From contig PNJK01000030.1 in assembly GCA_013821825.1 (NCBI GenBank), positions 1-39,760 of the forward strand: a stretch of 39,760 nucleotides of DNA, in the 5' to 3' direction. Of the stretch, positions 6,250 to 38,738 are shown piece after piece. A model generated the notes under the pieces. That model was not told where the DNA came from. It did not search any database and saw only the letters and a program-made list of their open reading frames with translations. The DNA is from Rhodobacter sp. Lineage in GTDB: Bacteria; Pseudomonadota; Alphaproteobacteria; Rhodobacterales; Rhodobacteraceae. Both the position numbers and the translations under genes were made by a program. How positions within the stretch are numbered: the first letter of the stretch is position 1; every line of letters begins with the position of its first letter.

Positions 6250-7809
6250 TCAGTCGGGCCGCCAGATTTCGGGGGGGCGACCGGGGCGCAGGATCTGGAA
6301 ACTCTGCGCCGGAACCGTCTGCCAGTCCCCGGCGGTGCCGTCTGGCCAGACCACGCGCAGCTCGACCGTTTTCTTGTCGCCAAGGCCGAAATGCAGCCAG
6401 CCGACCGACCCGCTTACATGCCCCCCGCCCGAGGTGATCTCGTGCCGTTCCACCACCTCGTCGCGTTTGATTTCGATCACCGCGCCGATCGCGTCGCGAT
6501 TGGTCCCGGGTTGTTCCAGCCGGACCTGTAGCCAATTACCCGCCAGATCTCCGGTGGACCGCCAGATCTCGACCGGGGTCCAGCGGTTCACAACGACAAG
6601 GTCCAGCCGTCCATCCAGGTTGAAATCCACCACCTGCGCCCCGCGTGACGTGGCGAAACTGCCCACCCCGGCCCGGTCTCCGGCTTCGACAAAGGTGCCG
6701 TCCGCCTGCTGCAACATCAGGTTGTTAGGATCCTGCGCCGCGAAATCCGGCATCTGCGACACGTTGCCCTTGGCCACGAAGAGATCAAGCAGGCCGTCGT
6801 TGTTCACATCGGCAAACTGCGCGTGCCAGGCGGTCGAGGGGTTGAGATCGCCCCCGGTATAGGGCCGGTGCGCGGTGACGCCTGAAGGATAGGCGATGTC
6901 GGCAAAATCCGGCAGACCCCTGGCGGGGTCCTTCAAGACCTGCAGCTTGTTGTCGGCCATGCTGGTCAGGTAATAATCCGGATAGCCATCCCGGTTGATA
7001 TCTGCCGAAGCTATGCCCATCCCCCAGATGCGCAGGCGTTTCCAGCCCTCGGCCTCCGTATAGAGCCGGGGCTGCAGGCCAGGCTCCAGACGCCAAAGCT
7101 GCTCCTGACCGCCCTTGTAGTATTCACGGTCGTTTGACACCCGCAGCGCGGGCTGGCCGGACCGGTTCCAGTCGGTGAACAGCATCGACAGCGCGCAGTA
7201 GGACGGGGTCAGGGGCAGGGGCGGCGCAAAGCCCAGACCCTCGGGCCGGTGCAGCCAGTTGTCGGTGCAGGATCCCCAAGGAAAAGCCGTCTCTTTGCGG
7301 TCAAGGTAGTTGCCGATGGCCAACGTGGGCCAGGTGGCCCCCGGTTCCCAGATCGCCGCAAAGGCGGTTGACCAGGCGTCGCCGCCATCAAAGCCCCAGG
7401 TGGCCGTCGCATCCTCGAACCTGCAGTCGCCAAGGCCGCGGAACAGCTTGTTCTCGCCCAGCCGCAGCACCACAAGATCCATCACCCCGTCGCTGTCGAT
7501 ATCCAGCGGATAAGCCCCGATCACCGCGTCAAGCGTCAGGGCATCGGTCTTCTCGAAGCTGAGGGCGCCACCTTGGGGGCTGCGGTTCCGGTAAAGCGCC
7601 GAAGGCCCTGCGCCACCAGAGATGAACAGGTCAGGGAACCGGTCGCCCGAACAATCAAACGTCGCAACCCCGCCGCCGACCATGTATTCCCATTCGCCGC
7701 TGTAGACCGTGTCGATACCGGCGGTCAGCGTCTCCTCGGTGAAGCGTGGCAGGGCAGGTTCGGCCGCAAGCGGTGCGGCGGTGGCAAGGAAAACCAGGGC
7801 GCGGATCAT
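6250..7809 (-). CDS. Secreted CRTAC1-family protein (FG-GAP/VCBS repeats plus ASPIC/UnbV domain)
   Basis: A 519-residue secreted protein. The ATG at 7809, not the further upstream one, gives a clean signal peptide (MIRALVFLATAAPLAAEP) and overlaps the preceding stop by 4 bp (ATGA). Several Ca-binding FG-GAP-type loops of the pattern DxxxDxxxD are visible: DCSGDRFPD, DIDSDGVMD, DINRDGYPD, DVNNDGLLD and DFNLDGRLD, consistent with a beta-propeller. The C-terminus (about RDAIGAVIEIK to SFQILRPG) matches the ASPIC/UnbV domain. Such proteins are adhesive or interaction modules; no enzymatic residues are obvious. Coupling to the haloperoxidase-like gene suggests a joint periplasmic or extracellular role. 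Confidence 0.88.
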   Translation of the reverse strand: MIRALVFLATAAPLAAEPALPRFTEETLTAGIDTVYSGEWEYMVGGGVATFDCSGDRFPDLFISGGAGPSALYRNRSPQGGALSFEKTDALTLDAVIGAYPLDIDSDGVMDLVVLRLGENKLFRGLGDCRFEDATATWGFDGGDAWSTAFAAIWEPGATWPTLAIGNYLDRKETAFPWGSCTDNWLHRPEGLGFAPPLPLTPSYCALSMLFTDWNRSGQPALRVSNDREYYKGGQEQLWRLEPGLQPRLYTEAEGWKRLRIWGMGIASADINRDGYPDYYLTSMADNKLQVLKDPARGLPDFADIAYPSGVTAHRPYTGGDLNPSTAWHAQFADVNNDGLLDLFVAKGNVSQMPDFAAQDPNNLMLQQADGTFVEAGDRAGVGSFATSRGAQVVDFNLDGRLDLVVVNRWTPVEIWRSTGDLAGNWLQVRLEQPGTNRDAIGAVIEIKRDEVVERHEITSGGGHVSGSVGWLHFGLGDKKTVELRVVWPDGTAGDWQTVPAQSFQILRPGRPPEIWRPD

Positions 7810-24901: not shown

Positions 24902-25031
24902 CACACCGCCTCCTGCATACCGTTGCACACAATAGGGTGTGGCGCAGGTGCGGGGCAAGGGCAGCAACCCGGCCATTGTGCGGCAATTCCGGAAATTCCT
25001 GCACGGCAGTCTAAGACTTAGCCAGGTGTCG

Positions 25032-25069
25032 AAGTATCTGTTTGCATCGACTCTCTGGCCAAGATACTT
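25032..25069. promoter_or_regulatory. Inverted repeat in the glcB/arsR divergent promoter, candidate ArsR operator
   Basis: AAGTATCT (25032-25039) and AGATACTT (25062-25069) are exact reverse complements 22 bp apart, ending 6 bp before the ArsR-family start codon. A second palindrome, CTAAG-A-CTTAG, sits at 25011-25021. ArsR/SmtB repressors bind dyads overlapping their own promoter, so these are the best candidates for autoregulation. The gap 24902-25075 also serves glcB. Confidence 0.5.
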
Positions 25070-25075
25070 AGTGAC

Positions 25076-25414
25076 ATGGCTAAGCAAGATCCCAACCTTT
25101 CGCGGCTGTTCCACGCCTTGTCCGACCCCACGCGGCGGATGATGCTGGGCCGCCTTGCCCGTGGCCCGGCGGCGGTGACCGAGCTTGCCGGACCAACCGG
25201 CCTGCGACTGCCGACGATCATGCGGCATCTTTCGGTGCTGGAAGAGGCAGGGCTGGTCAGCACGCGCAAGGACGGGCGCGTGCGGTCCTGCGCGCTGGAA
25301 CCGCAGGCGATGGAGCCGGTGCGAGGCTGGCTGGACGAACACCGCGCGGTCTGGGAGGCGCGGCTGGACCGTCTGGATGATTACGTGATGACCCTTATGG
25401 AGAAACGGGAATGA
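25076..25414 (+). CDS. ArsR-family transcriptional regulator
   Basis: A 112-residue winged-helix regulator. [23 protein letters not shown] is the typical N-terminal signature, and [26 protein letters not shown] is the recognition helix plus wing. It lacks the CxC metal motif of arsenic sensors. It fits the subgroup that is coupled to SRPBCC/AHSA1 genes, whose signal is unknown. The stop overlaps the next start by 4 bp (ATGA), so the two are translated together. Likely autoregulated through the repeat just upstream. Confidence 0.93.
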
Positions 25415-35570: not shown

Positions 35571-38500
35571 TCAGCCAAGGTCCGCAAGGCGGGCGAGGGC
35601 GACCTTGATCTTGGCCGCTTCATCCTCGCGTGCTCCAAGGTTCGACTGGGCCTCCATCACCACGTCCTCGGGGGCGGATTTGGCGAAGTTCGGGTTGTCG
35701 AGCCGGCCTTTCAGCCCACCGATCTCTTTGCCCAGCTTCTCCAACGCCTTTTGCAGGCGGGATTTTTCCTCGGCAATGTCGATCAGGCCCTGCAGCGGGA
35801 TCGCGAAAGCTGCCCCTTCAGCGGCGACCGCTATGCTGCCCTTGGGGGCGGGGCCTTCGGTGACCTGATCAATGCGGGCGAGGCGTTTGATCAGCACTTC
35901 ATTGCGCTGGAACGCCTGCCGGGCCTCGTCGGTCAGGCTGGTGCCTACAAGGTCGGCCTTCAGGCCCACCGGCACATGCACCTGCGCGCGGGCGGATCGG
36001 ATGTCGTCGATGAGGGTGGTGACGAAGGACATCTCGGCTTCCGCTGCGCGGTCGATCAGGCTGGCAGGCAGGGTCGGCCAGTCGGTATGGACGAGGAGTT
36101 TCTCGCGTTTGCCGGTAGAGCCCCACAGGTCTTCGGTGATGAAGGGCATGAACGGGTGGAGAAGGATCATCGACTGGTCGAGGACCCAGGCCATGGTCTG
36201 GCGGGTTTCCTCGGCGTCGGGGCCGTCGAACAGGGGCTTGGCGAATTCGACATACCAGTCGCAGACCTTGCCCCAGACGAACTTGTAAAGCGCGTCGGCG
36301 GCGGTGTCGAAGCGGAAGTCTTCAAGCGCCGCGTTGACTTCGGCGAGGGTCTTCGCAGTTTCGCCGATGATCCACTTGTTCGCGGTGGCCTTGGGCGCGG
36401 GCGCGGGGCTGGTGGCGTGACCCTCCCAGACCCCGTTCATCTCGGCAAAGCGGCAGGCGTTCCAGAGCTTGGTCCCAAAGTTGCGGTAGCCCGCGATGCG
36501 GCTCGTGTCGAGTTTCAGCACGCCCCCCAGCGAGGCCATCGCCGCATTGGCAAAGCGCAGCGCATCGGCGCCGTATTCGTCGATGATCTCCAACGGGTCG
36601 ATGACGTTGCCCAAGCTTTTGGACATCTTCTTGCCCTTGGCGTCGCGGACAAGACCGTGCAGGTAGACAGTGTGGAAGGGGATGTCATTCACCACGGCAA
36701 GCTGCATCATCATCATCCGGGCGACCCAGAAGAAAAGGATGTCTTGGCCCGTGACGAGGACCGAGGTGGGGAAGTATTTCTGCAACTCCGGCGTGGGTTC
36801 CGGCCAGCCGAGCGTGCCGATCGGCCAGAGGCCAGAGGAGAACCAGGTGTCGAGGACGTCGGGGTCGCGCCAGACGGGGTAAATCAGCCGGGTTGCGTCC
36901 TGCCCCGTCTCATAGGCTGCCAGCGAGGCGGCGAGGGCCTCCACTGCGGCGGCGCGGTCGGCGACCTCCACCACGCGGGCATGGTTCAACGGATGGGGCA
37001 GGGCCGCCAGATCGTCGAGGAACTTGTCGGTGACGGAAAGGAAATCCGACGCGCAATTGTAGATCGCCTCACGCTGGACATGGCCGCCGTCGCCCAGGAC
37101 ACGCAGGATCTCAACCTCGTCCAGGGCCTCGTCGCCTTCGTCATCCCTGAATTCCGGCGCGGAGAGGTCGAGGCCATACCACACCGGAATCTGGTGCCCC
37201 CACCAAAGCTGGCGGGAGATGCACCAGGGCTCGATGTTTTCCAGCCAGTGGTAATAGGTCTTCTCGCCGCTTGGCGGGATGATCTTGGTGCGCCCTGCGC
37301 GCACCGCCTCCAGCGCGGGCTCCACGATCTTCGCGGTATCGACGAACCATTGGTCGGTCAGCATCGGCTCGATCACCACCTTGGAGCGGTCGCCGAAGGG
37401 CTGCATGATCGGCTTCGCTTCGACATAGGGGATCATCCGTTCCCCGTCCCGGGCCTGACCCGGGACCTCCGCGCTATCCGGCGCGCCAGTTGTGGGCGGA
37501 GGCCCCGGCTCGGAGGCCGGGGCGGGGTCGGGGACCATGACCGCCAGCCCTTCGGCAGTGATCTGCCCGACCACGCGTTTGCGCGCCTCGAACCGGTCAA
37601 GGCCGCGAAGGTCGTCGGGGACCAGGTTGATCGCGTCGACTTCCACCTCGGTCAGGGTCCGCTTACCCTTGGCCACGGCCATCGCCACGGCGGCGGCCTC
37701 ATCATAGGGGGCGCCATCGGCCCGCATCCGGGCGCGGGTATCCATCAGCCGGTAGCAGGGGATATCGGCGCGCTTGGCGACGGCGTAGTCGTTGAAGTCA
37801 TGCGCGCCGGTGATCTTCACGGCACCGGAGCCGAAGGTCGGGTCGGGGTATTCGTCGGTGATGATCGGGATCAGGCGGCGATGCTCCTTCGGTCCGACCG
37901 GAATTTCGCAAAGTTTCCCGACGATTGACGCATACCGTTCATCCGATGGATGAACTGCCACCGCCCCGTCGCCCAGCATGGTTTCAGGCCGCGTCGTGGC
38001 GATGGAAATGTAATCCCGCACCTCGCGCAGGGTTACGCGGCCCTCGGCGTCCTTCTCGACATATTCATAGGTCTCTCCGCCCGCGAGCGGGTATTTGAAG
38101 TGCCACATGTGGCCGGGAACCTCGGTATTCTCGACCTCAAGGTCCGAAATCGCGGTCTCGAAATGCGGGTCCCAGTTGACGGGGCGCTTGCCGCGATAGA
38201 TCAGGCCCTTCCGGTAGAGATCGACAAAGACCTTGATCACCGCGTCGTGGAAGTTGCCCTCTTCGCCCGCAGGCGCACCCGGCGCGCCGGACATGGTGAA
38301 AGCCTCACGGTCCCAGTCGCAGCTTGCGCCCAGCCGCTGCAACTGCCCGATGATCGTGCCGCGCGACTTCAGCTTCTGCTCCCATACCTTCAAGGTGAAG
38401 GCCTCACGCCCCATCTCGCGGCGCGAGACGTTGCCTGCCTCGGCCATCTCACGCTCGGTGACCATCTGGGTCGCGATCCCTGCATGGTCGGTGCCGGGTT

Positions 38501-38738
38501 GCCAAAGCGTGTCGTCGCCCATCATCCGGTGCCAGCGGGTCAGGATGTCCTGCAACGTGTTGTTGAAGGCGTGGCCCATGTGAAGGCTGCCGGTCACGTT
38601 CGGCGGCGGGATCATGATGGAAAAGGCCGGGTGGCCCGGCTTGGCATTGGCCCCGGCCGCGAAGGCCTTGGCATCAAGCCAGAGTTTTGAAATCCGGGCC
38701 TCGGCTTCGGCGGCGTTGAAGGTCTTTTCCATCGGCAT
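35571..38738 (-). CDS. valS: Valyl-tRNA synthetase
   Basis: A 1055-residue class Ia synthetase. The HIGH motif is SLHMGHAF within [13 protein letters not shown] and the KMSKS motif is KKMSKSLGN. The editing domain ([24 protein letters not shown] nearby) and the C-terminal coiled-coil arm (about 990-1055, [20 protein letters not shown]) are present. Start: ATG at 38738 with AGAGGA eight bases upstream, two codons before another ATG. At residues about 401-432, between GLAVMV and the [14 protein letters not shown] block, lies an in-frame Pro/Ala/Gly-rich stretch encoded by palindromic DNA; it lies in a variable surface region and all catalytic motifs are intact. Confidence 0.96.
37445..37535. 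repeat. Palindromic repeat inserted in frame in valS
   Basis: Three nested dyads lie in under 80 bp: GTCCCGGG-CCTGA-CCCGGGAC (37447-37467), CCTCCGC (37467-37473) with GCGGAGG (37497-37503), and GCCCCGGC-TCGGAG-GCCGGGGC (37503-37524). The plus-strand translation contains VPGLTRDL and the valS frame contains VPGQARDGE, peptide shadows I associate with short dispersed repeats of alphaproteobacteria. No stop codon falls in the valS frame. Boundaries are estimated. The repeat status rests on structure and memory, not on a second copy here. Confidence 0.6.

Follow-up and report, generated by a model that had tools for sequence, protein, structure and literature searches.

Translated palindromic repeat units in a valyl-tRNA synthetase loop of Rhodobacteraceae and in other conserved genes

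Translated palindromes are best known from the intracellular Rickettsia and Wolbachia. Rickettsia palindromic elements, as described in PMC2229807, are 105–146-bp, Rickettsia-specific repeats that form in-frame fusions within conserved protein genes, and a test with guanylate kinase reported there found the effect to be neutral or slightly harmful. The CGTC superfamily of REPs is characterized in parts of PMC3733652 by an unpaired CGTC (or TGTC, CCTC) end, an 8–9-bp stem usually starting with A-T, a loop of 4–5 and a CCA-like tail; according to those parts it occurs mostly in Alphaproteobacteria, mainly as head-to-head dimers, and has no dedicated transposase known. The same parts of PMC3733652 place REPs within genes of several species, tRNA synthetases among them (valS may be included), and report different REPs at about one recB site in two Xanthomonas species.

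The DNA analyzed here (the window, 39,760 nucleotides) is the entire contig C30 of a Rhodobacteraceae genome (G000; 4.0 Mb, 234 contigs), and carries a palindromic element translated within valS. Its host genus belongs to a different order from Rickettsia in the same class, and translated palindromes here occur in conserved genes in another part of the class of Rickettsia and Wolbachia. An earlier reading made from the DNA alone (the sequence-only reading) had likened the element to those of Rickettsia. The parallel was apt in that RPE-4 and RPE-6 belong to the CGTC superfamily of REPs, as stated in part of PMC3733652; the element proved to be a REP dimer whose family occurs throughout the genus and is not confined to Rickettsia.

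We distinguish the repeats below as families A to E. Like the Rickettsia elements described in part of PMC2229807, they lie in frame in conserved genes (here valS, nnrD, cobN, cobG and carB), but they are built of ~30-bp units in pairs, and the connection to Rickettsia runs through the superfamily description. They share with CGTC REPs, as these appear in parts of PMC3733652, the short palindrome, the 5-nt loop, the inverted dimers, the sometimes intragenic position and an alphaproteobacterial host, and they may likewise have no dedicated transposase (PF01797 was over its cut-off in 0 of 32 genus genomes), whereas here several families share gene loops. By sequence, family C fits the CGTC superfamily (CGTC, A-T first pairs, 5-nt loop), with a tail other than CCA in the copies read. 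Family A resembles it, having CGTC and a 5-nt loop, but differs from the description in PMC3733652, in which CGTC is unpaired and A-T pairs come next: here GTC is paired into the stem, which does not open with A-T pairs. Families B and E start with GTAG and form inverted pairs, as do the GTAG REPs with RAYT treated in part of PMC3733652, in contrast to which RAYT scored over the cut-off in 0 of 32 genomes of our genus. The sharing of one position in orthologous genes by different REPs recalls the Xanthomonas recB case (PMC3733652, in part), which concerns one gene in two species, whereas here several genes and many species are involved. REPs inside genes are thus already known, as are Rickettsia palindromic elements. 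What is new, as far as shown by the literature searched (titles and abstract openings, with few subscription journals), is that unrelated repeat families have used the same loops in several conserved genes of related bacteria. We found no paper in that literature dealing with REPs that are translated in Rhodobacteraceae or that lie in valS.

The palindromic element in valS

The element and its gene occupy the following positions in the window.

35571..38738, minus strand: valS, valyl-tRNA synthetase, P0001 (NCBIfam NF004349; ATG at 38738 and TGA stop checked, choice of start codon presumed)
37441..37534, minus strand: inverted pair of REP units, in frame as P0001 residues 403–434 (inverted repeats and copies elsewhere in the genome)
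37442..37470, plus strand: first unit, family A, CCCCGTCCCGGGCCTGACCCGGGACCTCC, with the coding-strand reading EVPGQARDG (8-bp stem and family A pattern)
37473..37495, no strand: spacer separating both units, with 7-bp complementary tails on either side (arm pair)
37496..37534, minus strand: second unit, a diverged family A variant, stem CCCCGGC/GCCGGGG (8-bp stem)

P0001 (1056 aa) scored 1135 bits with the NCBIfam valine–tRNA ligase model NF004349, whose cut-off is 704, and its frame is open, as noted in the sequence-only reading. The closest valS among named genomes, within the best 80 of 588 relatives, were those of Rhodobacter sp. SGA-6-6 and Fuscovulum blasticum, a set from which the nearest records are possibly absent. 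The insertion site corresponds approximately to residues 333–339 of T. thermophilus ValRS (1gax), where the HMMER gap opened when a relative with a short loop (L121) was used as the query. The loop is presumably exposed, which would let it tolerate the insert as a surface loop.

Three tight GC-rich dyads had been claimed for the element, and all three stems were present. The inverted-repeat search returned perfect 8-bp stems in the first unit (37446–37453/37459–37466) and in the second (37502–37509/37516–37523), and the family A pattern matched the first unit with 0 mismatches at C30:37446–37469. The middle 7-bp dyad CCTCCGC/GCGGAGG (37466–37472/37496–37502), which lies within a 16-nt arm pair of 88% complementarity, was not tight, its arms being separated by 23 nt. 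The outer arms (37441–37460/37515–37534) were 75% complementary, indicating that the stretch consists of two inverted units, for which separate folds or a single hairpin are both possible.

Taken alone, the fold of the element was only moderately unusual (z −2.62), since 2 of 200 dinucleotide shuffles folded as well. As an inverted repeat it scored 10, which 5 of 200 codon shuffles also reached, and four further inverted repeats of the same window scored 11, as might be expected if chance GC-rich palindromes had arisen within a GC-rich coding loop. This is the weak point for the window's own copy considered by itself. A search of 36900–38100 for RNA families returned only mir-934, whose 19.7 bits fall short of the gathering score of 80. 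We judged the element to be above chance because its unit is repeated elsewhere in the genome, not because of its fold. With a 116-nt query against the own genome, both halves of the element found a match on contig C35, the first at 97% over 31 nt (E 6.4e-8) and the other at 84% (E 7.4e-4), and there they are adjacent and form a full inverted pair; the same arrangement (A-,A+) was seen in several clusters of genome G001.

The own genome contained 6 matches to the family A pattern, the valS copy included, and 15 to the family B pattern, each against 0 in the reversed-pattern control; across genomes the control for family A gave 0–1 matches per strand. A looser first pattern for the own genome was dropped, as it gave 10 matches per strand against 7 in the control. 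The unit is therefore not single-copy, with up to 44 family A matches in a sister species, and a short palindrome in multiple dispersed copies is what defines REP/BIME in the broad sense. These repeat-family matches already refuted chance as an explanation, to which we assign a negligible probability; uninterrupted 22–24-bp stems in the same loop of three relatives (see below) stand against it as well. The suggestion that the insertion is recent was left unsupported, since the window copy is diverged.

Elsewhere in the window, positions 25017–25084 hold an imperfect inverted repeat with 23-nt arms and 47% GC inside, compared with 62–66% in the flanks.

Repeat families at the valS loop of relatives

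We compared 110 valS loci, 30 from 61 genomes and 80 representing the best 80 of 588 relatives. Repeat units were present in 9 of the 103 loops read, the other 94 matching no unit (7 of 110 loci were unread). The carriers fell into family A (the own locus L021, L030 and L038), family A variants (L077, L100), family B with GTAG (L037, L040) and family C with CGTC (L089, L102); the unit finder, in which mismatches were allowed, labeled L037, L089 and L102 as family A variants, and we reassigned them to B, C and C, respectively, by reading. Of the 27 genus loops, 26 were readable: 5 had units and 21 were unit-free and 28 residues long, consistent with the earlier claim of a segment that is extra compared with the usual ValS. 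Orthologues thus lack the segment and the unit is multicopy, so that neither condition named as refuting the sequence-only reading was borne out and that reading is largely supported. However, the window element was not simply added to the loop usual in the genus, as the residues T.LKKSVDKETGAEHLE are missing from it. In the family as a whole the loop varies in length and sequence even without repeats.

Several of these copies were far more regular than the one in the window. The L040 loop contained a 24-bp perfect stem, and the L030 and L038 loops had 22 uninterrupted pairs inside a 29-bp stem with two mismatches; for each of the three, 0 of 200 codon shuffles did as well. A scan of the 100 of 110 loci that were anchored found inverted repeats scoring at least 14 inside five valS genes (L030, L036, L037, L038 and L089), every one in this loop; the own copy scored below 14, and the unanchored L040 and L102 were examined separately.

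The L036 loop (G003:C3) contained poly-G and poly-C runs, Ns and family B-like edges at the position of the expected hairpin. It probably represents an assembly failure at the hairpin, and its assignment to a family is correspondingly putative. Hairpin sites of this kind may be lost from draft genomes.

Copy numbers were compared with carriage in valS. Family A was most abundant in G001 (44 matches) and G020 (34), whose valS genes both contain the family A pair; the next highest count was 24. The family B pattern (GTAGGTCGGGGCNNGCCCCGAC, with up to 2 mismatches and GTAG at one end) was found in 30 of 32 genus genomes and most often in G004 (41), which has B in its valS, whereas G003 (14) and G027 (11) had fewer matches than several non-carriers. 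A rank test of carriage against copy number in 27 genomes gave p = 0.010 for A and p = 0.07 (not significant) for B, and after subtraction of two matches for the valS copy 0.016 and 0.11, respectively. Family C patterns had 39 matches in Jannaschia marina and 33 in M0601, both carriers, and 0 matches in the genomes of the valS carriers L077 and L100.

The occurrences are separate on the valS tree. With 37 valS sequences from which the loop was removed, parsimony required five changes of state for insert versus none, and six for family states; L077, L089, L100 and L102 (Jannaschia marina and others of the family) lie outside this tree. The own locus L021 was sister to L024, and L036 to L028, L024 and L028 both being without an insert. 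A single clade of the six genus carriers, L036 included, was rejected (AU p 0.011), for a group that had been chosen after a first tree. L040, represented by 48% of the columns, shifted its position between two trees.

The residues preceding the insert hint at a loop segment exchanged by recombination. AVMV was found in all 5 readable repeat-bearing alleles of the genus and AVT in all 21 repeat-free ones, so that AVMV and the repeat segment may have moved together among valS alleles by homologous recombination, a few original insertions being passed around. L030 and L038, which have one common element, were mutually closest in their flanks, and the flank nearest to that of L037 was that of L030, another bearer, both as exchange would predict. 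On the other hand, the flanks of L021 and L040 were closest to repeat-free alleles, and the elements belong to different families, for which one imported allele is an insufficient explanation. We regard such passing around as possible yet somewhat unlikely to account for the pattern.

Translated units in other conserved genes

Protein-family matches spanned or flanked the element in nnrD, carB, cobN and cobG as well as in valS. For G001, the 24 family A clusters (20 stretches) were examined for spanning frames, and profile searches were made on the frames of five: the carB, cobG, cobN and nnrD frames had family matches spanning or flanking the element, and in L209 the domain started after the element. 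Since five frames were profiled, at least 4 of the 24 clusters lie within genes. In the own genome the clusters numbered 15, spread over 12 stretches. Three of their frames were profiled: one was confirmed, as nnrD (L194, z −9.6), and the frames L187 and L192, each searched in one library, gave no family match.

At G000:C93:5759–7411 (L194, L215), nnrD (NAD(P)H-hydrate epimerase/dehydratase) contains a translated pair of family B units, nearly perfect, ahead of VLDADAL.

At this place in nnrD, units were present in 18 of the 23 loops read and in 18 of 20 within the genus (7 of 30 loci were unread; the three outgroup loops read had no unit). Four families were represented, as 6 B, 4 E (GTAG), 3 A, 4 D and one loop with A plus D; in this last case (L238, genome G006) both units were in one translated loop. 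Such recurrence at one loop could mean that the repeat-coded segment or the mRNA hairpin is functional, for instance in translation tuning or as an interaction surface, and that selection maintains it. This appears improbable, as the families, the lengths and the encoded peptides differ among species, and two genus nnrD loops and the 94 valS loops mentioned above do without a unit.

The two unit-free genus nnrD loops, L225 and L228, are short, and L225 has a small GC palindrome which by eye looks like a collapsed hairpin.

In cobN, 11 of the 26 loops read had units (3 of 29 were unread, and the second piece of one genome, L282, was left out). In five of the D cases in cobN, the inverted repeat was matched or beaten by 14–59 of 200 codon shuffles. 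A single A unit was found in 4 of the 22 carB loops read (6 of 28 were unread, two of 30 loci having been left out, one as partial and one as a weak second match), and in all four the inverted repeat was not beyond codon shuffles (6–48 of 200), so that in these five cobN and four carB loops the unit call rests on the sequence of the unit. At the same carB place L288–L290 had a five-residue insert without a repeat, which suggests that this loop tolerates length change as such.

In cobN L260 and L261 an A unit was called, and the adjoining D-like part was read by eye.

The comparison of cobN L253 (162 nt) with its insert-free relative L264 (81 nt) showed a whole pair against none. This bears on the idea that the palindromes grew in place, hairpin-templated mutation perfecting inverted repeats in a loop that is free to vary. 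The variation of the valS loop across the family without repeats would be compatible with such growth, and so would the imperfect palindrome of the window's own copy; the whole cobN pair argues against it, and the idea was already disfavoured by unit sequences that match dispersed copies within the same genomes. We consider it very improbable.

Origin and movement of the units

Our main reading, which we hold at a probability of roughly 0.85, is that a CGTC-like dimer of the REP/BIME kind entered the ValRS loop and was then translated, and that copies of such repeats, which also occur across the genus and in certain relatives, survive in tolerant loops which several families reuse. Being GC-rich, the units of families A and B that were tested lack stop codons in five or six of the six frames, and inserting them with a net length divisible by three would thus add a Pro/Ala/Gly/Arg-rich segment. 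Intragenic copies would then survive only where a loop tolerates additional residues, which would explain why the ValRS, NnrD, CobN and CarB loops hold inserts in many species, often from different families. Inserts at these shared loops would later decay or be replaced. Near-neutrality, transposition-like movement and turnover of the units are what this sequence of steps would imply. Because unrelated hairpin families also entered the same ValRS loop in related bacteria, the window element appears to be a parasite of the genome that is tolerated rather than a functional component of ValRS.

The Y1/RAYT domain (PF01797) was found over the cut-off in 0 of 32 genus genomes, with two weak matches below it, and in 15 of 149 genomes sampled across the family. 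RAYT was therefore rejected as the mover within the genus, a point against the movement that the main reading proposes.

A bolder extension of the main reading is that a handful of loops in enzymes serve as permanent docking sites, which unrelated palindromic repeats enter, share and replace, moved by something other than Y1/RAYT, with one repeat perhaps itself the target of the next. We put this forward tentatively, as an unlikely proposal; if true, nnrD L238 and cobN L260 and L261 would be turnover caught midway.

Because different families reuse the same loops, these genes offer natural replicates, in which one protein loop occurs with several inserts and, in other relatives, empty. Such replicates would lend themselves to measuring what an insertion costs, to mapping the sites at which enzymes permit one, and to the search for whatever moves REPs where RAYT was not found.

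In the own genome, two similar stretches lie 212 bp apart (G000:C4:6845–6922 and 7057–7134, L185), each with one unit of family B and one of family A. A further hairpin follows, and reading by eye shows its end to be GTAG-like.
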